DNA of 24,256 bases. Source: a bacterium (GTDB lineage Bacteria > ARS69). The position numbers and the translations under genes were made by a program. The stretch is from NCBI GenBank assembly GCA_025774865.1, contig JALGZO010000545.1, positions 1-24,256 on the forward strand. Direction: 5' to 3'. Of the stretch, positions 318 to 16,069 are shown one piece after another. The first letter of the stretch is position 1; the number at the start of each line of letters is the position of its first letter. Below the pieces are notes generated by a model. That model was not told where the DNA came from and made no database searches. It worked only from the letters and a program-made list of their open reading frames with translations.

Positions 318-1406
318 ATGGCCGGCGCAGAGCCCCTGCAGACGCCGCTCCACGACCGGCACGTGTCGCTGGGCGCCCGTCTCGTGGAGTTCGCCGGGTT
401 CCAGATGCCGGTGTCCTACGACGGCATCCTGGCCGAGCACCGACGCGTCCGATCGGTCGCGGGTGTCTTCGACGTCTCCCACATGGGAGAGGCAGAGGTC
501 CGAGGGCCTGAGGCCCAGTCCTTCCTCGATCAACTGACGACGAACGATGTGACCTCGCTGGAGCCGAACCAGGCCCACTACACGCTGCTCCTGAACCGAT
601 CCGGCGGGGTGATCGACGATTTGATTCTCTATCGGCTCGAAGATCGTTATCTTCTCGTGGTCAACGCGGCCAACGTCCAGAAAGACTTCGAGTGGATCGT
701 GAGCCACCAGCCGGAGGGCGTCGACTTCCGGAACATCTCGGAGGAGACGGCGCTCCTGGCCTGGCAGGGGCCGAGAGCGGCCGAGATCCTCGCGCCGCTC
801 GTCGACACGGACCTCGCGGCCGTTCCGAGCTTCGGAATCGTGAAGAGCCATCTCGCCGGGGTCTCCGTCGTCCTCGCCAGGACCGGATACACGGGCGAGG
901 ACGGGTTCGAGATCTTCGTCGGCGCGGCGGATGCGCCCTTCGTATGGGACGCGCTTCTCGAAGCGGGTGAGCCTCACGGGGCTGGTCCGACCGGACTGGG
1001 AGCGCGAGATACGTTGAGACTGGAGAAGCAGTACCGGCTCTACGGGCAGGACATGGACGAGTCGGTCACGGCACTGGAGGCTGGGCTCGGCTGGGCCGTC
1101 AAGCTCGACAAAGGGGACTTCCTCGGGCGGGATGCGTTGGCGAAGCTCAAGCGGGAAGGGGTCCCCCGGCTCTCGATCGGGCTCCGGGTGGACGAGCCGG
1201 GCCGTCACATCCCGCGGGCGGGTTGCGACGTCCTCGTGGGAGGCAAAGTGGTCGGAGAAGTGACCAGCGGTACGTTCAGTCCGACTCTCGAAGCCGGGAT
1301 CGCGCTGGCGAACGTGGAGCGCGCGGCCGTCAAGAGCGCCGACTTCGCGATACGGATTCGAGACCGGGATGCGCACGCGGTGCGCGCCCGCAAGACGTTC
1401 GTGTAG
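318..1406 (+). CDS. gcvT: Glycine cleavage system T protein (aminomethyltransferase)
   Basis: GcvT takes the aminomethyl group carried by lipoylated GcvH and, with tetrahydrofolate, releases ammonia and forms 5,10-methylene-THF. At 362 residues it has the usual length. The start is the ATG at 318, preceded by AGGAG. Visible family features are LVEFAGFQMPV near the N-terminus, DVSHMGE (about 52-58), GYTGEDGFEI (190-199), and RLEKQYRLYG (234-243) followed by MDESVTALEAGLGW, the folate-site region. The C-terminal part contains VTSGTFSPTLEAGIALA, typical of the small barrel domain. It is the first of four adjacent glycine cleavage genes, 36 bases before gcvH. With only 7 bases between thrS and gcvT there is no room for a separate glycine riboswitch. 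Confidence 0.97.
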   Translation: MAGAEPLQTPLHDRHVSLGARLVEFAGFQMPVSYDGILAEHRRVRSVAGVFDVSHMGEAEVRGPEAQSFLDQLTTNDVTSLEPNQAHYTLLLNRSGGVIDDLILYRLEDRYLLVVNAANVQKDFEWIVSHQPEGVDFRNISEETALLAWQGPRAAEILAPLVDTDLAAVPSFGIVKSHLAGVSVVLARTGYTGEDGFEIFVGAADAPFVWDALLEAGEPHGAGPTGLGARDTLRLEKQYRLYGQDMDESVTALEAGLGWAVKLDKGDFLGRDALAKLKREGVPRLSIGLRVDEPGRHIPRAGCDVLVGGKVVGEVTSGTFSPTLEAGIALANVERAAVKSADFAIRIRDRDAHAVRARKTFV

Positions 1407-1442
1407 ACACAAGACGCCCTGAGCAACACGAAGGGAGGCTCG

Positions 1443-1832
1443 ATGAACATCCCCGATGATCTCCGCTACACGCGGGACCACGAGTGGATTCTTCTCGAAG
1501 ACGGGATCGTGATCGTGGGGGTCACCGACTTCGCGCAATCCGAGCTCGGAGACATCGTCTACGTGGAGCTGCCTTCGGTGGGTTCGAAGGTGAAGGCGTC
1601 GGAGACGTTCGGGAGCGTCGAATCGGTGAAGAGCGTGTCCGATCTCTATTCGCCAGTGACGGGCATCGTCGCCGACATCAACACGCGCCTGGCCGAATCG
1701 CCAGAGCTCGTGAACAGCGATCCGTACGGCGAGGGGTGGATGATCCGCATCGAGCCCGGGGACCTCGCTGAGCTCGAGCAGCTGCTGGGCCCGCGGGAGT
1801 ACTCGGACTACATCGGTGCCGAAACCGAATGA
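1443..1832 (+). CDS. gcvH: Glycine cleavage system H protein
   Basis: GcvH is the small lipoyl carrier that shuttles the aminomethyl intermediate between the P, T and L proteins. It is 129 residues, a normal length, and opens with the family hallmark YTRDHEW. The barrel-sandwich fold is clear: VGVTDFAQSELGDIVYVELP, then the modification hairpin TFGSVESVKSVSDLYSPVTG with the lipoylated lysine at K63. The C-terminal part has NSDPYGEGWMIRIEP, also typical. The ATG at 1443 follows GGGAGG. Its stop overlaps the gcvPA start (ATGA at 1829), so translation of the two is probably coupled. No lipoate ligase or dihydrolipoyl dehydrogenase (L protein) is in the window, so these must be encoded elsewhere. 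Confidence 0.98.
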   Translation: MNIPDDLRYTRDHEWILLEDGIVIVGVTDFAQSELGDIVYVELPSVGSKVKASETFGSVESVKSVSDLYSPVTGIVADINTRLAESPELVNSDPYGEGWMIRIEPGDLAELEQLLGPREYSDYIGAETE

Positions 1833-3211
1833 CCGCGTTCGTCGAGCACACCGAGCACGATCGGAAACGCATGCTCGAGGCCATCGGGGTCACCTCGTTC
1901 GAGGAGCTCATCGGCGACGTTCCCGCCGGGCTTCGTCTTCCCGGGCTGCTCCCGATCGATGAGGGGCTGTCGGAGACGGAAACGCTGGCTCGGGCCCAGG
2001 AACTCGCGCGGCGCAATCGGGAGGCGGTGGACCTCGTCTGTTTCGCCGGGGGCGGCATCTACGACGTGTGCGTGCCGGCCGCGACGAAGGCGATCGCGAG
2101 CCGCCCCGAATACGCGACGAGCTACACGCCGTACCAGGCGGAGGTGAGCCAGGGTTCGCTCCAGGCGACGTACGAATTCCAGACGATCGTGACCCGGCTC
2201 ACCGGGATGGATCTCGCGAACGCGTCGATGTACGACGGCGGGTCGGCGCTGGCCGAGGCCGTGCTGCTCGCGCGGGCGACGTGCCCCGGCGATCGCATCC
2301 TGGTCTCGCCGCATTTGAATCCGAGCCACCGCGAAATCCTCGTGACGATGTTGGCTCCGTCGGGGGCTCGGATCGAAGAGCTTCCGGCCGCCGGTGCCCG
2401 CACTGAAGTGTCCGGGATCGTGCCCGAAGACCTCGCCGGTGTCTCCGCCGTCGTGCTGCAACATCCGAACTACCTCGGAGCGCTCGAGGACATGAGGCTC
2501 GCCGGAACTCTGCTGGAGGGCGAGAACACGCCGCTGTTCATCGCGTCCGTCGATCTGTCGTCCCTCGCGATTCTCGATTGTCCCGGCGCGTACGGCGCCG
2601 ACATCGCGGTGGGGGAGGCGCAGACGCTCGGGATCCCGATGAGCTTCGGCGGTCCGGTCGCCGGCGTGATCGCTGCGCGGCAGAAGTACCTGCGTCGGAT
2701 GCCCGGCCGCATCGTCGGGATGGGTCGTGACTCGAAGGGACAGCGCGCATTCACCTTGACGCTGCAGACGCGAGAGCAACACATCCGGCGGGCCCGCGCC
2801 ACGTCGAACATTTGTACGAATCAAGCGCTCGTGGCTCTGATGGCGACCGTGACCACCGCGCTGCTCGGTGAGACCGGGCGTCGTCTCGCCGCGACGTTGT
2901 CCGCCGAGAAGGCCGCGGTACTCGCTCAGAACCTCTCGGAGATTCCCGGAATCGCGCTCGCCGACCCGGAGGCTCCTTTCTTCCGGGAGTTCGCTCTCCG
3001 GCTTCCCGACGGAATGACCGGCGAGGACGTCGTCCGGAGAATGCGCCGGATCGGGATCCTGGCCGGCATTCCGCTCGAGCGCATCCCCGGCGGCGGCAAC
3101 GGCCTCCTCGTCGCGGTTTCCGAGAAGCGACTCTGGAGCGAGATCGAGAAATACGTGGAGACATTCCGAGAGATCATGGCCAGCGACGTGGTCGAGACGG
3201 GGGCAGGATGA
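1829..3211 (+). CDS. gcvPA: Glycine dehydrogenase (decarboxylating), subunit 1
   Basis: This is the N-terminal half of a split P protein, the PLP enzyme that decarboxylates glycine and transfers the remaining aminomethyl group to GcvH. At 460 residues it matches the two-subunit (PA/PB) form found in many bacteria and archaea. Visible family signatures are FAGGGIYD (72-79), SYTPYQAEVSQG (98-109) with SLQATYEFQTI following, and NASMYDGG (131-138). Further on are LGIPMSFGGPVAG and GRDSKGQRAFTLTLQTREQHIRR. The PLP lysine is not expected here; it lies in subunit 2. The start overlaps the gcvH stop by 4 bases, and the stop overlaps the gcvPB start by 4 bases (ATGA at 3208), which favours 1:1 production of the subunits. 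Confidence 0.97.
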   Translation: MTAFVEHTEHDRKRMLEAIGVTSFEELIGDVPAGLRLPGLLPIDEGLSETETLARAQELARRNREAVDLVCFAGGGIYDVCVPAATKAIASRPEYATSYTPYQAEVSQGSLQATYEFQTIVTRLTGMDLANASMYDGGSALAEAVLLARATCPGDRILVSPHLNPSHREILVTMLAPSGARIEELPAAGARTEVSGIVPEDLAGVSAVVLQHPNYLGALEDMRLAGTLLEGENTPLFIASVDLSSLAILDCPGAYGADIAVGEAQTLGIPMSFGGPVAGVIAARQKYLRRMPGRIVGMGRDSKGQRAFTLTLQTREQHIRRARATSNICTNQALVALMATVTTALLGETGRRLAATLSAEKAAVLAQNLSEIPGIALADPEAPFFREFALRLPDGMTGEDVVRRMRRIGILAGIPLERIPGGGNGLLVAVSEKRLWSEIEKYVETFREIMASDVVETGAG

Positions 3212-4692
3212 GCGAGCAGAGCGCCGCCGAGCTCCGAATCGTGGAGCCGACGCTATTCGAGCTGTCCCGAGCCGGTCGCCGCGGCTACCGCGTTCCCGAA
3301 GAGCGGACGGCGGGGCGCCACCCGCACGGGATCGAACCCCGGTTTCTCCGGCGCGAGCCCGCCGACCTCCCCGAGAACGGCGAGCTCTCCGTACTCCGCC
3401 ACTACACTCGGCTCTCGACGCTCAACCACCACATCGAGCGCGAGATGTACCCGCTCGGATCGTGCACCATGAAGTACAACCCGAAGATGGCGGAAGTGGC
3501 GGCCGACCTGGCGGGGTTCCGTGATCTGCACCCGGCGACTCCGGAGGACCTGACGCAAGGCGCGCTCGAGCTGCTCGTCGATCTGTCAGAGCGGCTCGCG
3601 CGGGTGACGGGAATGCACGCGGTCTCCCTGCAGCCGGCGGCGGGGGCCCAGGGCGAGCTCACCTGCCTCTTCATGGCTCGGAAGTACTTTCGAGATCGAG
3701 GGGAGGAGCGCCACAAGGTGGTGGTGCCCGACAGCGCGCACGGTACGAATCCGGCGAGTGCGAGCTTCGCCGGCTTCCAAACCGTCGAAGTCGCCTCGAA
3801 CGAACGCGGTGAAGTGGACGTGGAGAAGCTGCGGGAGGCGGTCGACGGCGACACCGCGGTGGTCATGCTCACATTGCCGAACACGCTCGGCCTGTTCGAA
3901 TCCGGCATCCGCGAGATCGAGCGGATCGTGCACGACGCCGGAGCGCTCTTCTACATGGACGGCGCGAATTTCAACGCCATCGTCGGGATTCTTCGCCCTG
4001 GCGACGTTCCGTTCGACTTCCTGCACCTCAACCTGCACAAGACCTTCGCGACCCCTCACGGGGGCGGGGGCCCGGGATCGGGCCCGATCGGGGCGTCGGA
4101 GGCGCTGGCTCCGTACCTGCCGGGCCCGGTGCCCTCCCGGCGGGCCGACGGGACGTTCTTCCTCGACGACGATCGTCCCCGCTCCGTGGGCCGGGTCCAT
4201 TCCTGCCTCGGGAACTTCGGAATCCTCGTCCGGGCGTACACCTACCTGCTGTTCCACGGCTCCGACGGCCTGAGGGAGATCTCCGAGGGAGCCGTTCTCG
4301 GAGCGAATTATTTGATGAGTCGGCTGCGCCGGGCCTTCGAATTGCCGTACGATCGGCCCTGCTTGCACGAGTTCGTCATCTCGGGCTCCCGACAGAAGGC
4401 CGGAGGCGTTTCGACCATGGACATGGCGAAGCGGCTCCTCGACTTCGGGTTCCATCCGCCCACGGTCTACTTTCCGTTGATCGTGGATGAAGCGATGATG
4501 GTCGAGCCCACGGAGTCGGAGAACGTGGAAACGCTGGATCGGTTCGCGGATGCGATGCTCGAGATCGCCCGCGAGGCGGAGACGTCGCCGGACGTCGTGA
4601 AGACGGCTCCGCACACGACACCCGTGGGCCGCCTCGACGAGGCGGACGCGAACCGACGGCCGAATCTCTGCTGGGGTGGGCGCTGCGGATGA
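3208..4692 (+). CDS. gcvPB: Glycine dehydrogenase (decarboxylating), subunit 2
   Basis: This is the PLP-binding half of the P protein, which forms an active enzyme with GcvPA. It is 494 residues, near the usual length for this subunit. It shows EREMYPLGSCTMKYNPK (77-93), the substrate-side motif, VVVPDSAHGTNPASA, MDGANFNAIVG, and the PLP Schiff-base segment HLNLHKTFATPHGGGGPG with the lysine at K278. The tail DEADANRRPNLCW is typical of the family. No key residue appears missing. It closes the glycine cleavage block. Its stop overlaps the next start by 4 bases (ATGA at 4689), so the small downstream membrane gene lies in the same transcript. Confidence 0.97.
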   Translation: MSEQSAAELRIVEPTLFELSRAGRRGYRVPEERTAGRHPHGIEPRFLRREPADLPENGELSVLRHYTRLSTLNHHIEREMYPLGSCTMKYNPKMAEVAADLAGFRDLHPATPEDLTQGALELLVDLSERLARVTGMHAVSLQPAAGAQGELTCLFMARKYFRDRGEERHKVVVPDSAHGTNPASASFAGFQTVEVASNERGEVDVEKLREAVDGDTAVVMLTLPNTLGLFESGIREIERIVHDAGALFYMDGANFNAIVGILRPGDVPFDFLHLNLHKTFATPHGGGGPGSGPIGASEALAPYLPGPVPSRRADGTFFLDDDRPRSVGRVHSCLGNFGILVRAYTYLLFHGSDGLREISEGAVLGANYLMSRLRRAFELPYDRPCLHEFVISGSRQKAGGVSTMDMAKRLLDFGFHPPTVYFPLIVDEAMMVEPTESENVETLDRFADAMLEIAREAETSPDVVKTAPHTTPVGRLDEADANRRPNLCWGGRCG

Positions 4693-5123: not shown

Positions 5124-5445
5124 TCGGGCGGACGGCGCGATCGGCGTGACACCACCGCGCAAGGGCCCGCGCGAGCGGACGGCGGAGGACGAAGCGTTGC
5201 TCGATCGGATCGCGACAGCCGTCGTGAAGTGGGGCATGTCGGTTCCGGCCGTGTTCCTGTTGGAGTCGTCGAAGCCCATGTCCTTCGTCGGCAGCCAGTT
5301 CCTCCACTTCCTTTCCCCGATCGTGCATTCGGTTCTGAACGCGCAGGAACTGGACCGGCTCGCCGTCATGCTGGAGCGTCGCGACACCATGGAGGTCCTG
5401 ATCCTGCGCATCGAGCGATTCGAGGAGGAGGCGAAGAAGCAGTGA
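5080..5445 (+). CDS. Small conserved-looking protein of unknown function before glmL
   Basis: I do not recognise this 121-residue reading frame. From the ATG at 5080 it overlaps the previous gene by 44 bases. A GTG at 5146 in the same frame would remove the overlap and give a 99-residue product beginning VTPPRKGPRERTAEDEALL, which looks more natural because the first 22 residues are low in recognisable structure. Neither start has a strong ribosome binding site. The body contains a hydrophobic stretch (about 50-80: VPAVFLLESSKP, FLHFLSPIVHSVLN) and a charged helical end (LAVMLERRDTMEVLILRIERFEEEAKKQ, split here for reading). The stop overlaps the GTG start of the next gene (GTGA, 5442-5445), so it is probably co-translated with the GlmL-like protein and may work with it. 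Confidence 0.7.
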   Translation: MWKGWWGKAGTTQPDRADGAIGVTPPRKGPRERTAEDEALLDRIATAVVKWGMSVPAVFLLESSKPMSFVGSQFLHFLSPIVHSVLNAQELDRLAVMLERRDTMEVLILRIERFEEEAKKQ

Positions 5446-7274
5446 CGGAACCACGAAATCTCGATCCGTCGCGGATCAGGTCGATTCTCGCGACCGACTG
5501 CGGCAGCACGACGACAAAGGCCATCTTCATCGAGGCACGCGATGGCGAGTTCCGCCTGATCGTCCGGGGCGAGGCCCCCACGACGGTGGAGGCGCCGTTC
5601 GAAGACGTCACGAAGGGCGTTCTGAACGCGATCGAGGAGGTCGAGGAGCTCGCCGACCGTAAGTTCCTCGAAGGCGACCGCATCATCACCCCGCCTCGCG
5701 ACGACGGATCGGGCGTCGACCTCTACGTGTCGACCTCCTCCGCCGGAGGAGGACTGCAGATGGTCGTGGCCGGCGTCGTGAAGACGATGACGGCCGAGAG
5801 CGCCGAGCGTGCTGCTCTCGGGGCCGGCGCGATCGTCATGGATGCCCTGGCCTCCAACGACGGACGCCGCCCGCACGAGCAGATTCGTCGCATCCGTCAC
5901 CTGCGCCCCGACATGATCCTCCTCTCGGGGGGAATCGACGGTGGGGCCGAAGAACACGTCGTGAGGCTCGCGGAGATCATTTCGGCCGCCGACCCGCGGC
6001 CTCGCCTCGGCTCCAGCTACCAGCTCCCCGTCATCTACGCGGGCAACAACAAGGCCACCGAGCACGTCACGAAATCCCTCGGGGACAAAACGGACCTCGC
6101 CGTCGTCGACAACCTGCGGCCGGTGATGGAGCGCGAGAATCTCGGGCCTGCCCGCGACAAGATCCACGACCTGTTCATGGAGCACGTGATGGCGCAGGCG
6201 CCCGGCTACAAGAAGCTGATGGAGTGGGTGGGCGTTCCGATCATGCCGACGCCCGGCGCGGTCGGGAACATCATCCAGACGATCGCGAAGCAGCACGGTC
6301 TGGACGTCATCGGGGTCGACATCGGCGGCGCCACGACCGACGTCTTCTCCGTCTTCGACGAGACGTTCAACCGAACCGTTTCCGCGAACCTCGGGATGAG
6401 CTACTCGATCTCTAACGTGCTCACGGAGGCGGGCATCGACAACGTGATGCGGTGGGTGCCCTTCACGATGGGCGAGAAGAGTCTGCGCAACCGCATCCGG
6501 AACAAGATGATCCGACCCACCACGATTCCGCATTCGCTCGAGGAGCTCATGGTCGAGCAGGCCCTCGCGCGTGAGGCCCTCCGGCTCGCGTTCGACCAGC
6601 ACAAGGAGATGGCGGTGGGGCTGCGCGGCGTGCAGAAAGAGCGCACCGTCTCGGATACGTTCGAGCAGACCGGCAGCGGGGACACGATCGTCGACATGAT
6701 GTCGCTCGACCTCCTGATCGGATCGGGCGGGGTCCTGTCTCACGCGCCGCGACGGCACCAGGCGGCGATGCTGCTCATCGACGCGTTCCTGCCGGAAGGT
6801 GTCACTCGCCTCGGTGTCGATTCGATCTTCATGATGCCGCAGCTCGGAGTGCTCGCGGAGGTGCACCCGGAGGCGGCCACCGAGGTCTTCGAGAAGGACT
6901 GCCTCATCTGGCTCGGGAGCTGCGTGGCTCCGCGCGGGGTGAGGCCGGACAAGCCCGTGCTCACCGCCGAGCTCCGTCGCGCCGGCGCACCGGAGGTGCA
7001 CGAGCTGCGCGCGGGCGAAGTGAAGCTCGTGCCGCTCGCGCTCGGTGAAACCGTGGAGGCGCGTCTCACGCCCGCGAAGGGCTGCGACCTCGGCGCCGGG
7101 CCCGGCCGCTCGATCCAGCAGGACATCCACGGCGGCGTGGTCGGTCTCGTTCTGGACGGCCGTGGCCGGCCATTGCAGCTCGATTCGTCGGATGCAAATC
7201 GCGTTGACGTCATCCGTCGCTGGGCGGCCGCCTACAAGGCCTACCCGGAGGCGGAAGCCGTGCCGGTCGGTTAG
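5442..7274 (+). CDS. GlmL/MutL-like ASKHA protein (methylaspartate mutase accessory protein family)
   Basis: The open frame extends upstream to 5229, but I chose the GTG at 5442 because it overlaps the preceding stop by 4 bases and puts the first motif near the N-terminus. The resulting 610-residue protein has the actin/hexokinase/Hsp70-type ATPase signatures of the GlmL/MutL family: phosphate-1 loop TDCGSTTTKA (18-27), GVDIGGATTDVFSV (phosphate-2, D293 in DIGG), and an adenosine-type LIGSGGVLSHAP near 427. Family members are found beside B12-dependent glutamate mutase and related aminomutases, where a role in handling or reactivating the mutase is assumed. No mutase S or E subunit is in this window, so the partner is unknown. 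It is followed 14 bases later by a companion gene, suggesting a two-protein unit. Confidence 0.88.
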   Translation: MTEPRNLDPSRIRSILATDCGSTTTKAIFIEARDGEFRLIVRGEAPTTVEAPFEDVTKGVLNAIEEVEELADRKFLEGDRIITPPRDDGSGVDLYVSTSSAGGGLQMVVAGVVKTMTAESAERAALGAGAIVMDALASNDGRRPHEQIRRIRHLRPDMILLSGGIDGGAEEHVVRLAEIISAADPRPRLGSSYQLPVIYAGNNKATEHVTKSLGDKTDLAVVDNLRPVMERENLGPARDKIHDLFMEHVMAQAPGYKKLMEWVGVPIMPTPGAVGNIIQTIAKQHGLDVIGVDIGGATTDVFSVFDETFNRTVSANLGMSYSISNVLTEAGIDNVMRWVPFTMGEKSLRNRIRNKMIRPTTIPHSLEELMVEQALAREALRLAFDQHKEMAVGLRGVQKERTVSDTFEQTGSGDTIVDMMSLDLLIGSGGVLSHAPRRHQAAMLLIDAFLPEGVTRLGVDSIFMMPQLGVLAEVHPEAATEVFEKDCLIWLGSCVAPRGVRPDKPVLTAELRRAGAPEVHELRAGEVKLVPLALGETVEARLTPAKGCDLGAGPGRSIQQDIHGGVVGLVLDGRGRPLQLDSSDANRVDVIRRWAAAYKAYPEAEAVPVG

Positions 7275-11766: not shown

Positions 11767-12732
11767 TTGATTCGATACATCATTCGCCGAGTGCTGGTCT
11801 CGATTCCCCTGATCTGGGCGCTGGCCACGCTCACCTTCTTCATCATCCGTCTCGCGCCCGGCGATCCGCTCGCCATGTACTACAATCCCGAGATCGACCC
11901 CGCGGTCATGGAAACCGTGCGGGCTCGGCTCGGCCTCGATCAACCTCTGCACATTCAATATGTACGCTGGCTCGCGTCGCTCGCGCAGGGTGAGCTCGGC
12001 GTCTCGTTCTCGCACCACCGTCCGGTCGCGGACATCCTGGCCGAGGCCATCCCCAACACGCTGACGCTCACCGTCTGGGCGCTCGTGATCAACATGGTGG
12101 CCGGCGTCGTGATCGGCGTCATCTCGGCGATCCGCCAGTACTCCTGGGTCGACAACGTGATCACGGGCGGAGCGCTCTTCATCTACTCGATGCCGAGCTT
12201 CTGGCTCGGGCTCATGCTCATCATTCTGTTCTCGCTGAAGCTGGGGATTCTGCCCGCGAGTCAAATGGAGTCGGTCGACGCGGAGTACATGTCCTTCGGG
12301 CAGCGGATGTGGGATCGCGGTCTTCATCTCGCGATGCCCGTCTTCGTCCTCGGAATCGGATCCGCCGCGTCGGTGGCTCGGTACATGCGCGGGAGCTTGC
12401 TCGAGGTCATCCGCCAGGACTACATCCGTACCGCCCGCGCGAAGGGGCTTCCCGAGCGAACCGTGATCTTCAAGCACGCGCTCCTCAATGCGATGCTCCC
12501 GATCATCACGCTGCTCGGTCTCTATATCCTGTTTCTGATGTCGGGATCCGTCGTGACGGAGACGATCTTCGCGTGGCCCGGGATGGGCCGGGTGACGGTC
12601 GGGGCAATCTTCGCGCGCGACTACCCGATCGTCATGGCCGCCAATCTCATCGCCGGCGTGATGGTCGTGGGCGGCAACCTCCTCGCGGACCTGCTGTACG
12701 GCGTGGTCGATCCGCGGATCCGGTACGACTGA
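11767..12732 (+). CDS. Peptide ABC transporter permease, DppB/OppB type
   Basis: This 321-residue inner-membrane permease forms half of the transmembrane channel of the importer. It has the standard DppB start (IRYIIRRVLVSIPLIWALAT) with a first membrane helix, then LAPGDPLAMY and LGLDQPLHIQYVRWL, both family landmarks. The cytoplasmic loop that docks with the ATPase is visible as QDYIRTARAKGL (RTARAKGL at 221-228) followed by KHALLNAMLPI. The C-terminal part has TETIFAWPGMGR. The start codon is TTG at 11767, preceded by GAGAGGGAAG; no ATG fits better. Its stop overlaps the ATG of the DppC gene by one base (TGATG). Confidence 0.94.
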   Translation: MIRYIIRRVLVSIPLIWALATLTFFIIRLAPGDPLAMYYNPEIDPAVMETVRARLGLDQPLHIQYVRWLASLAQGELGVSFSHHRPVADILAEAIPNTLTLTVWALVINMVAGVVIGVISAIRQYSWVDNVITGGALFIYSMPSFWLGLMLIILFSLKLGILPASQMESVDAEYMSFGQRMWDRGLHLAMPVFVLGIGSAASVARYMRGSLLEVIRQDYIRTARAKGLPERTVIFKHALLNAMLPIITLLGLYILFLMSGSVVTETIFAWPGMGRVTVGAIFARDYPIVMAANLIAGVMVVGGNLLADLLYGVVDPRIRYD

Positions 12733-13847
12733 TGAAGGTCGCTCTCTCTCTCCTCCCCGGTCTCGGACACGTGTTGCACGGACGCACGGCCCGCGGCGTC
12801 GGCGTGGGGTTGGCCTGGCTCGCTTTCGTGGCCGTGGCGGTCGCGGCCCGCGGCGAGATCGCTGTCGCATTCGCGGGGCGAGCCCTGGATGCGAAGCTCG
12901 CGACGGTATTCCTCGGGGTGATGCTCGTCGGGCTGCCGGTTCTCTCGATGGTCGATTGTCGCCGGTTGCGTCACGAAGACGCCCGAACGCACCGCGAGGG
13001 CGTGAGTCAGTGGAAGCTCGTGTATCGCCGGTTCATGCGGAATCGGGTGGCACGGGGGGGCTTCGGGCTGGTTCTCGTGCTCTACTGCGTGGCCATCCTG
13101 GCCCCGTTCCTGGCTCCCCACGACCCCAACGCCCAGGACGACATCGTGCACACGCGGTACCAGTCGCCGGGACAGGATTTCGTCCTCGGGACCGACAAGT
13201 TCGGGCGCGACATTCTCTCGCGAATCATCTACGGCGCCCGCATCTCGCTATCGATCGGCTTCATCGCCGTCGGCCTGGCGATCACCCTCGGGACTCTGCT
13301 GGGGGCGGTGGCCGGGTACTTCGGAGGAGCCGTCGAGTGGGCGATCATGCGATCGGTGGATGTGCTGATCGCCTTCCCCCGTCTCTTCATCGTGCTCACG
13401 CTCATCGCGGTCTACAGTCCTCAGATCTGGCTGATCATCGCGGTGCTGGGGGTCACGTCCTGGATGGGCGTGGCGCGCCTCGTCCGGGGGCAGATCCTCT
13501 CGATCAAAGAGCAGGAGTTCGTGCAGGCGACGCGCGCGCTCGGCGTGCCGCACCTGCGAGTGATCTTCCGTCACGTGCTGCCGAACACGCTTTCTCCGGT
13601 CATCGTCGCGGCCACTTTGATGATCGGGGACGTCATTCTGACCGAAGCGATCCTGTCGTTCCTGGGTCTTGGTGTGCAACCTCCCACCGCCTCCTGGGGG
13701 AACATCATCAACCAGGGGCGGGACAACCTGCTCGGCGCCTGGTGGATCGCGACCTTTCCCGGGCTCGCCATCGTGATCACGGTCGTTTCGTACAACCTGC
13801 TCGGCGACGGGTTGCGTGACGCGCTGGATCCACGGTTGAAAGAGTAG
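12732..13847 (+). CDS. Peptide ABC transporter permease, DppC type, with extra N-terminal membrane domain
   Basis: The start is the ATG at 12732, sharing one base with the dppB stop; the frame is open further upstream inside dppB, but that part is a shadow. Residues from about 93 onward are a standard DppC permease: WKLVYRRFMRNRVARGG, LAPFLAPHDPNAQ, FVLGTDKFGRDILSRI, the ATPase-docking loop QATRALGVPHLRVIFRHVLPN read as two parts around residue 265, and FLGLGVQPPTASWG. Before it lie about 92 extra residues that normal DppC lacks: LPGLGHVLHGRTARGVGVGL and two hydrophobic segments (about 23-39 and 55-75). The PGLG..L.GR...G pattern recalls small TM2-like membrane domains, which is inference. 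The total of 371 residues is longer than the usual 280-300. A palindromic element begins 18 bases after the stop. Confidence 0.93.
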   Translation: MKVALSLLPGLGHVLHGRTARGVGVGLAWLAFVAVAVAARGEIAVAFAGRALDAKLATVFLGVMLVGLPVLSMVDCRRLRHEDARTHREGVSQWKLVYRRFMRNRVARGGFGLVLVLYCVAILAPFLAPHDPNAQDDIVHTRYQSPGQDFVLGTDKFGRDILSRIIYGARISLSIGFIAVGLAITLGTLLGAVAGYFGGAVEWAIMRSVDVLIAFPRLFIVLTLIAVYSPQIWLIIAVLGVTSWMGVARLVRGQILSIKEQEFVQATRALGVPHLRVIFRHVLPNTLSPVIVAATLMIGDVILTEAILSFLGLGVQPPTASWGNIINQGRDNLLGAWWIATFPGLAIVITVVSYNLLGDGLRDALDPRLKE

Positions 13848-13864: not shown

Positions 13865-13980
13865 GTGGCGGGGATCCCGAACGCCCTCGCTCCGCTATAC
13901 GCTCCTCGTCGAACATCCAAGCCTCTTGAAGGAGACTGCGGTGCGCCACGCGGCTCGAGGACGACCGGGATCCCCGCCAC
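13865..13980 (+). repeat. Palindromic 3' element, copy 1 (sense of dppC)
   Basis: The outer arms GTGGCGGGGATCCCG (13865-13879) and 13966-13980 are perfectly complementary over 15 bp. Inside, 13885-13889 pairs with 13956-13960. A 2x2 mismatch follows, and then 13892-13895 pairs with 13950-13953. The core blocks 13883-13920 (38 bases) and 13934-13960 (27 bases) are identical to copy 2 read in the opposite direction. The segment between them (13921-13933) differs and can form a weak hairpin. The element starts 18 bases after the dppC stop. Confidence 0.85.
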
Positions 13981-14171
13981 CATCCCCTCCCGTGAGTCCC
14001 ACCTCCAGGGCTTCCAACGGATGGAAGCCCGCCCAACCCGTCGTCGACGGTGGACGACTCGCCGTCTCCCCGGGGCGAGCCCGGGGAACATCTCTGGGTG
14101 TGGGGTGGGAGCGGCCGATCCAGTCGGGCTCCCAGCCTCCCCCCATGGACTGGCTGGGCTTGCCCGCGCCT
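13981..14171. other. Spacer between palindromic elements, with hairpins and possible pseudoknot
   Basis: No gene is seen. There is a perfect 9-bp hairpin at 14008-14030 (GGGCTTCCA / TGGAAGCCC, loop of 5) and an 8-bp hairpin at 14067-14087 (TCCCCGGG / CCCGGGGA, loop of 5). At 14120-14158, CCAGTC can pair with GACTGG while CCCAG pairs with CTGGG in the order 1-2-1'-2', which is the arrangement of an H-type pseudoknot. Formation in the cell is unproven. Confidence 0.6.
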
Positions 14172-14279
14172 TCGGCCACGTGTGGGCCCTCGAGCCGCGT
14201 GGCGCACCGCAGTCACCCTTCTCGGGTTTGGATGTTCGACGAGGAGCGTATAGCGGAGCGAGGGCCCACACGTGGCCGA
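14172..14279 (-). repeat. Palindromic 3' element, copy 2 (sense of the fused ATPase gene)
   Basis: The outer arms 14172-14192 and 14259-14279 are perfectly complementary over 21 bp and begin with TCGGCCACGTGTGGG, a sequence unrelated to the arms of copy 1. Then comes the same 2x2 mismatch as in copy 1 (14193-14194 against 14257-14258) and the same 4-bp stem. Core blocks 14228-14265 and 14188-14214 are exact reverse complements of those in copy 1. The middle variable part contains ACCC and GGGT, which pair. Read on the minus strand, the element starts 8 bases after the ATPase stop codon. Confidence 0.87.
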
Positions 14280-14287
14280 GGTGCGGC

Positions 14288-16069
14288 CTAGCCCCGGCCC
14301 GCCTGCCGCGCGCGAATCGTCTCGGGCCGATCGTCGGGGATTGCTGCGATGAGACCTCGCGTGTACTCCTCACGCGGGTTCGCGTAGATCTCGTTCGCTG
14401 GACCGCGCTCGACGATCAGACCTTGATTCATGATCGCGAGATCGTCCGACATGAACTTCACCACGGCCAGGTCGTGACTGATGAAGATGTATGTGAGGCC
14501 GCGGTTTTCCTGGAGGTCCTTCAGGAGGTTGAGGACCTGCGCTTGCACGGAAACGTCGAGGGCGGAGACCGACTCGTCGCAAATGAGGAAGTTCGGGTCG
14601 ACCGATAGCGCCCGGGCTATGCATATCCGCTGGCGCTGCCCGCCCGAGAACTCGTGCGGGTACCGTTTCAAGTGACCCTCTTCGAGTCCGACTTCGCGGA
14701 GCAACGCGGCGGCTCGTTCGCCCCGGTCGCGTCGCGAGGCGCCGATCCCGTGAATCTCCATCGGCTCGACGAGCGCGCTTTCGACGGTGAGGCGAGGGTT
14801 GAGCGAACCGTAGGGGTCTTGGAAGATGATCTGCATGTGCTTGCGCAGCCGTCGAAGCTCCCGTCCACGTAACTGCGAGAGATCCTGCCCGCGGTAAAGG
14901 ACCCGGCCGGCCGTCGGCTCGACGAGCCGGAGGATCGCTCGACCCGTCGTCGTCTTGCCGCATCCCGACTCGCCCACGAGCCCCAGGGTTCGTCCGGGGC
15001 GCACCTCGAAGCTGATTCCGTCGACCGCCTTCACGTGCCCGGCGACGCGCTGGAGGATTCCCTTGCGGATCGGGAAGTGGACCTTGAGGTCGTGCACGGC
15101 GAGCTCGGGCTCGCCGGTCGCGGGTGCGCGGGTCTTGCGCGGACGCACCAGCCGCGACAAATCGGGCTGCCTCTCGATGATATCGATCTCGCCATCCGGG
15201 CCCTCCCGTACATCCATGAAGTCCGAGACGCTCGGTAGGCGGAGGTACGGCGTCTCCAACCGTGGGCGACACGCGAGGAGCCCCTTCGTGTAGGGGTGCT
15301 GGGGATTCTCGAACAGCTGGACGATGGGGCCGTATTCGACGAGCCGACCGCGGTACATGACGGCGACCTCGTCGGCGATCTCCGCGATCACGCCGAGGTC
15401 GTGCGTGATGAACAGAATGGACATCTTCCGCGTGTCACGAAGGTTCCGGAGCAGATCGAGGATCTGGGCCTGAATCGTGACGTCGAGCGCCGTCGTGGGC
15501 TCGTCGGCGATCAGAAGCTTGGGGTTGCACGAGAGGGCCATGGCGATCATGACGCGCTGCTGTTGGCCGCCGGAGAGCTCGTGCGGGTACATGTCCACGC
15601 GGCGCTCCGGGTCGGGAAGCCCCACCTCTTCGAAGAGCTGGATCGCCCGCTTTCTCGCCTCGCTCTTCTTTACCTTCCTTCCGCCGTCTTCCTGATGAAT
15701 CAGGATGGCCTCCATCACCTGGCTGCCCACGGTGAGGACGGGATTCAGCGACGTCATCGGTTCCTGGAAGATCATGCTGATCTGGGCGCCGCGGACTCCG
15801 TACATCTCGCGCTCCGGGAGAGTCAGGAGGTCCGTGCCCAGGAACCGGATCGTGCCACCCTCGATGACGGCCACCCGGTCGGGAAGGAGTCGAAGGACGG
15901 AGAGGCTCGTGACTGACTTGCCGGAGCCGGACTCTCCGACGAGGCCCAGAGTGCGCCCCTCATGGATCTCGATCGTGAGGTCTTGGACGGCGTGGACCGT
16001 CTCGTCCTCGGTGTGGAAGGTGGTCCGGAGGCCCTCGATGCTCAGAAGGGTCGGCGAAGCGGGCGCCAT
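14288..16069 (-). CDS. Fused dipeptide ABC transporter ATPase (DppD-DppF type)
   Basis: This 593-residue protein carries two complete ABC ATPase domains in one chain and would power the peptide importer from the cytoplasmic side. Domain 1 has Walker A GESGSGKS (45-52), signature LSGGQQQR (165-172), Walker B LLIADEP (185-191) and switch histidine H223, followed by the oligopeptide-family tail NPQHPYTKGL (255-264). Domain 2 has GESGCGKTT (366-374), FSGGQRQR (474-481), LICDES (495-500) and H532, with NPREEYTRGL. All catalytic motifs are intact, so both sites should hydrolyse ATP. Walker B of domain 2 ends in DES rather than the usual DEP, a common variant. The gene lies convergent to the binding protein and permease genes and has its own promoter, so subunit levels can be set separately. 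The ATG at 16069 has a GGGGGA about 11 bases upstream. Confidence 0.95.
   Translation of the reverse strand: MAPASPTLLSIEGLRTTFHTEDETVHAVQDLTIEIHEGRTLGLVGESGSGKSVTSLSVLRLLPDRVAVIEGGTIRFLGTDLLTLPEREMYGVRGAQISMIFQEPMTSLNPVLTVGSQVMEAILIHQEDGGRKVKKSEARKRAIQLFEEVGLPDPERRVDMYPHELSGGQQQRVMIAMALSCNPKLLIADEPTTALDVTIQAQILDLLRNLRDTRKMSILFITHDLGVIAEIADEVAVMYRGRLVEYGPIVQLFENPQHPYTKGLLACRPRLETPYLRLPSVSDFMDVREGPDGEIDIIERQPDLSRLVRPRKTRAPATGEPELAVHDLKVHFPIRKGILQRVAGHVKAVDGISFEVRPGRTLGLVGESGCGKTTTGRAILRLVEPTAGRVLYRGQDLSQLRGRELRRLRKHMQIIFQDPYGSLNPRLTVESALVEPMEIHGIGASRRDRGERAAALLREVGLEEGHLKRYPHEFSGGQRQRICIARALSVDPNFLICDESVSALDVSVQAQVLNLLKDLQENRGLTYIFISHDLAVVKFMSDDLAIMNQGLIVERGPANEIYANPREEYTRGLIAAIPDDRPETIRARQAGRG

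Follow-up and report, generated by a model that had tools for sequence, protein, structure and literature searches.

Small dispersed palindromic repeats are a known kind of bacterial element, and several families of them bear comparison with the pair of hairpins described here. The Correia elements (NEMIS) of Neisseria are small dispersed palindromes near genes whose long-stem transcripts can be cleaved by RNase III (PMC2229807, PMC2649163, PMC10969869); they combine an inverted repeat with a conserved core structure and with promoter and IHF motifs (PMC2649163, PMC2229807). In pneumococcus, the small interspersed repeats SPRITE, BOX and RUP are over-represented between convergent genes, and SPRITE has been proposed to be a co-opted terminator; the enrichment of IS elements and other small repeats in such gaps was read as tolerance and not as function (PMC3049150). 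ERIC and YPAL of enterobacteria are palindromic intergenic elements of 127-168 bp, and ERIC copies at gene 3′ ends alter transcript level (PMC2229807, PMC10969869). REP and REPIN palindromes are found at gene ends, at times as inverted pairs (PMC3116915, PMC3733652).

The elements reported here resemble Correia/NEMIS in being small, dispersed, palindromic and close to genes, but in them conservation is lowest in the outer inverted repeats, whose sequence varies between copies and of which only the pairing is kept. The SPRITE stem is 18 bp long and comes with a U-rich tract, whereas the present elements have stems of 25-35 bp, no U-tract and a complex nested core fold; the portions of PMC3049150 drawn on here make no mention of compensatory change or covariation. 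By description, ERIC and YPAL are similar in being palindromic elements of intergenic regions, and the portions of the cited literature drawn on here do not report several distinct stems around one core. REPs differ in their length of 20-40 bp and their tagged end (GTAG or CGTC), and membership of REP/RAYT was ruled out by the absence of PF01797 (the Y1/REP-associated, IS200/IS605-type transposase) from the source genome, in an assembly that is 92.65% complete and with positive controls detected. Integron attC sites were also rejected as a match: they have conserved outer R″/R′ sites, a variable center and a place in cassette arrays, whereas our elements have variable outer ends and lie singly or as inverted pairs between ordinary genes. 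An Rfam search gave nothing at gathering score, its weak matches being to miRNA-type hairpin models and, once, to chrB-b at E 5.7. By these tests, the elements fall outside REP/RAYT, Correia, attC and every Rfam family. Like intrinsic (Rho-independent) terminators, the elements are GC-rich hairpins right past a stop codon; unlike them, they have a structured core of ~60 nt in place of a short loop.

The window, meaning the whole stretch of 24,256 nucleotides that was analyzed, contains two of these elements between a + strand gene for an OppC-like ABC transporter permease (12732..13847; PF00528, 2.5e-32; PF12911, 6.4e-16) and a convergent − strand gene for a two-domain Opp-type ABC ATPase (14288..16069; PF00005, 1.4e-64; PF08352). 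A first-pass annotation had placed two palindromes at 13865-13980 (copy a) and 14172-14279 (copy b), and we found both there, inverted relative to each other and beginning soon after the stops, copy a 17 nt past the permease stop (13847) and copy b 8 nt past the ATPase stop (14288). Elsewhere in the window, a glycine cleavage cluster (T protein, H protein and P protein in two parts) is recognizable by sequence at 318-4692, and a MutL-family gene (PF13941) follows it at 5442-7274.

Both copies are nested hairpins of a type that we call F1, scoring 106 bits (copy a, − strand favored for folding) and 110 bits (copy b, + strand favored) with a covariance model, and in copy a inverted arms enclose the core. 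The outer stem of copy a pairs the arm beside the + strand gene (13865..13889) with 13956..13980; its 25 positions comprise 22 Watson-Crick pairs, two pairs that are G-U on the − strand and one mismatch, and they include the perfect 15-bp self-complementary arm noticed earlier (13865-13879 with 13966-13980). In copy b the perfect 21-bp arm (14172..14192) pairs with 14259..14279, and its innermost 5 bp belong to the core. As had been claimed, the outer arms of the two copies are unrelated in sequence, and two core blocks, GCCCTCG...CATCCAA (38 nt) and GACTGCGG...CTCGAGG (27 nt), are identical between the inverted copies. The whole conserved core, with the inner stem counted in, spans 77 nt in copy a (13884..13960, − strand), and that of copy b (14188..14264, + strand) is 92% identical to it; an F1 core is not expected by chance within the window. 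None of 200 shuffles folded as well as either copy, the fold z-scores being −5.8 (+ strand) and −8.6 (− strand) for copy a and −9.2 (+) and −9.3 (−) for copy b. The spacer between the copies (13981..14171, no strand assigned) contains no repeat detected elsewhere and had no match at the other F1 or F3 loci. No T-run follows either arm of the two window copies or of the other copies examined, which makes an ordinary intrinsic terminator unlikely; terminator-like sites with a T-run numbered seven in the window against 9.5 expected, and thus were not above chance.

The source genome (4.7 Mb in 785 contigs, assembly 92.65% complete) contains many further copies. A BLAST search with the core gave 15 matches at E<1e-7, both window copies among them, and nearly all of the intact ones have paired outer arms of their own (C509 is degraded). 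The covariance search of the same genome that the first-pass annotation had proposed was likewise productive: model R1, built from 12 of the 15 copies, detected a diverged set, F2, at about 50 bits, which supports a relation between F1 and F2, and a search with the partner of F2 recovered a set designated F2b and more copies. A third type, F3, was met beside one F2 copy and has a different core; it was missed by the F1 model and shares only architecture and short motifs with F1, so we do not claim common descent. The counts are about 13 copies of F1, about 20 of F2/F2b and five loci of F3, or roughly 40 dispersed hairpin elements, mostly between gene ends, and the true number is probably higher because several copies sit at contig ends. 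All follow a common plan in which an outer stem of about 25-35 bp encloses the core, and perfect stems reach 34 bp in copy C216, which is separated by 2 and 9 nt from the stop codons of two convergent genes. A few copies (C235, C703) have lost core and pairing, so some sites do not require the element. Two structural details noted in the window pair hold for part of the family. The A-G/G-A internal loop is kept on the 3′ side of most F1 copies and is missing from F2 and F3, and the variable central piece pairs well in every F2 copy but in only part of the F1 copies.

What is unusual about the family is that the core is conserved while the arms around it retain pairing but not sequence; MITE-like repeats mostly show the reverse, with conservation in their inverted ends. 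The outer arms change fastest and yet remain paired, with 956 of 1016 outer-stem pairs across the element family being Watson-Crick. Selection on structure, as proposed from the window pair, is borne out in F1, where 16 of the 32 modeled pairs show double compensatory changes. The proportion of F1 cells that pair was 97.9%, compared to 82% in shuffled and 36-47% in slid alignments, and 55 cells showed double changes against a shuffled mean of 16.6, a count that none of 500 shuffles reached. Within F2, F2b and F3 the arms can be aligned and differ by paired changes, and in each set none of 5000 trials that scattered the same substitutions at random gave as many Watson-Crick pairs as were observed. 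Compensatory change exceeded every randomization tried and goes beyond column composition, as in a structure-selected RNA. An outer stem that varies but stays paired on one strand points to selection for a folded RNA and not for a sequence. Copies C160 and C313, apparent alleles of one locus that are 94% identical over 198 nt, differ by a 2-nt loss that is the same in both arms. In a census of 442 kb of the source genome that favored contigs with hits and left out one contig of the set, long inverted repeats whose spacer did not exceed 160 nt were almost only these elements, and no long hairpins with a short loop turned up, which argues that the arms were not borrowed from ordinary terminators.

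A mutation that produces a G-U pair on one strand produces A-C on the other, so G-U pairs mark the strand that folds. When the arms were aligned with both kinds of mismatch scored alike, the favored strand had 37 G-U vs. 7 A-C across all sets, and 28 vs. 6 after repeated sites were collapsed (P about 1e-4). The strand of F1 was chosen after its better folding had been seen; that of F2 was preset by homology to F1, and F2 alone gave ratios of G-U to A-C of 10:0 raw and 9:0 collapsed. In collapsed counts, the bias is clear for F1 and F2 together (21 vs. 2) and weak for F2b and F3 together (7 vs. 4). Because the non-Watson-Crick pairs are mostly G-U on one strand, that strand appears to have been selected to fold, as RNA or possibly as single-stranded DNA; RNA fits the asymmetry best and single-stranded DNA next, and the asymmetry is not expected under template switching or neutral decay of a palindrome. 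The strand that the first-pass annotation had read as sense is the weaker folder (in copy a, −64 kcal/mol on the + strand vs. −78 on the − strand), and it is the other strand that tolerates G-U. The sense orientation of each element to its own gene does occur in inverted pairs, but the strand concerned is the less favored one.

Using gene calls made for this purpose, we compared the 15 element-bearing gaps (10 convergent, 4 tandem and 1 divergent) with 147 gaps of at least 50 nt that lack elements, of which 13 are convergent and 134 are not (Fisher P about 9e-7). The suggested preference for the downstream side of genes appears as a strong bias, with 10 of 15 loci convergent. Location alone proves nothing, since IS elements and small repeats are likewise enriched between convergent genes (PMC3049150). 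In the inverted pairs (the window pair, C72 and the five F2b/F2 pairs on C515, C660, C729, C381 and C183), the favored strands point away from each other, and the element nearest a gene is read in the less favored orientation. Of the 10 loci with a single element and both flanks readable, 9 have the favored strand in sense orientation to the closest gene upstream, an exploratory pattern that we noticed post hoc.

Several features point to a mobile origin. F2b and F2 lie inverted to each other in a MITE-like unit, about 0.4-0.5 kb in size, that has 22-nt terminal inverted repeats CTAGTGTTCCGTCTCGAAAGTC (in the source genome, at L092:421-853, L094:10407-10930, L096:1960-2490 and others); unit sizes vary, and some units contain a single hairpin. 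This arrangement of repeats occurs at 15 places with up to 3 mismatches, and the reversed pattern at none. All of the matches inspected bound short units or remnants, and no transposase-bearing element was seen among them. CTAG is present at both ends of several F2 units and could be a duplication or part of a terminal inverted repeat. The F1 unit is bounded by its outer inverted repeats, whose sequence is not conserved, and the copies on C28 and C72a are 95% identical over the palindrome, with homology ending there. Deletion remnants also occur, in which the F2b outer arm is joined to the F2 3′ arm and both core and pairing are lost (L215:1501-1620, L219:1501-1620).

We put the chances at about even that this is a dispersed repeat family of mobile origin whose copies persist as 3′-UTR hairpins with an RNA fold on one strand. 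The two alternatives in the first-pass annotation, a 3′-end RNA element and a mobile palindromic repeat, both fit and do not exclude each other. Most likely the elements work like MITE-derived 3′-UTR hairpins, with the putative function of halting exonucleases or read-through. Copies would insert downstream of genes and then persist in the 3′ UTR, where transcription of the folded strand would come from the gene upstream or, for inverted pairs, from read-through of the opposing gene. The long duplex of the 25-35-bp stem could block 3′-5′ exonucleases, read-through antisense transcription or both. It may also be a substrate for RNase III, and processing as in Correia elements is possible given the length of the stem (PMC10969869, PMC2649163). 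The arms would be free to drift, since pairing alone would be needed, and the core may be held by a putative binding partner or by its own fold. A bolder proposal, which we regard as doubtful, is that transposition has spread a new family of structured RNAs whose long stem is maintained after insertion by selection on pairing alone, at dozens of unrelated gene junctions; the family would then stand in for U-tract terminators in this genome or protect against antisense read-through where genes converge. We know of no described 3′-end system in this phylum, for which very few genomes are available. A conserved middle with evolving paired ends records, in natural copies, selection that has acted on a fold since insertion, and about 40 insertions offer a testable set for mobile DNA turning into gene-end machinery.

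Possible, though in our judgment rather unlikely, is that the elements are selfish MITE-like DNA, with a strand-specific fold (of single-stranded DNA or of a transposition RNA) that serves mobility and with convergent gaps as places of harmless insertion. The F2 pairs inside units with terminal inverted repeats agree with this, as do the C28 and C72a copies, whose homology stops at the palindrome, the known enrichment of IS elements in convergent gaps (PMC3049150) and the fact that single-stranded DNA, too, tolerates G-T better than any other mismatch. However, neutral decay predicts equal numbers of G-U and A-C, and the copy-specific mismatches of F2 are all G-U, so pairing seems to have been maintained after insertion; nor was a Y1/REP-associated transposase found in the genome or a transposase-carrying element seen. 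Template switching at palindromes (quasipalindrome correction) could keep arms paired by mutation with no selection on RNA, and the loss shared by both arms in C160/C313 is what one switch would produce, as perfect stems as long as that of C216 might be. Such switching would erase G-U and A-C alike, yet the residual mismatches are heavily skewed on one strand; it may contribute to arm pairing, and as the sole cause it is improbable. The unrelated arms of the window copies would also be expected if a mobile element had inserted in the loop of pre-existing terminator hairpins, with outer arms that are host sites. We consider this very unlikely, as almost no long hairpins lacking such a core occur in the 442 kb and the arms of most F1, F2/F2b and F3 copies can be aligned within each type, with compensatory differences, so the arms descend with the element. 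Hardly credible is a guide or address function in which the arms would pair with targets elsewhere in the genome or in other RNAs: variable arms around a constant core would suit it, but the arms are fully self-paired, and a 15-mer of the copy b arm, sought with up to 1 mismatch, occurs elsewhere in the genome only once, on C514, with 1 mismatch.

The expectation that related genomes would carry copies was not upheld, as the element family is missing from all four of the other genomes searched in this phylum. It was also not found in 55 further genomes, where one weak match was judged to be chance. The five genomes covered represent one taxonomic family of a thinly sampled phylum, so absence elsewhere says little on the wider range. 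A pattern scan of 84,980 species genomes gave eight matches, all judged to be chance and none with the palindrome, and viral contigs and plasmids gave no matches. Matches of model R1 in genomes G020 (E 0.0076) and G004 (E 1) were rejected, as they lack the sequence features of the family.

Other repeats were observed during these searches. Genome G020 has unrelated GTAGGG-type palindromes of its own, reminiscent of GTAG-tagged REPs (L149:10115-10226, L155:9657-9721, L158:2326-2382), and one palindrome of this type mimics the element to the covariance model. Genome G002, from the same taxonomic family as the source, has a different dispersed inverted repeat that starts with CTAG (CTAGCCYGCATTTCTCACCAG) and has spacers of 28-30 or 130-140 nt (L133:10893-10972, L134:4458-4652, L139:7287-7468, L139:12875-13060, L140:10784-10848). 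In the source genome, tandem half-copies of the F1 element with a period of about 100 nt are present at contig ends (L030:13894-14064, L040:1-165). Next to F1 and F3 elements a short repeat around GTCAACCGGAGTACGC turns up repeatedly, in tandem or inverted form (L030:13617-13790, L201:538-682, L203:1608-1745), and at L204:1048-1070 and 1288-1316 it forms an inverted pair that flanks F3.
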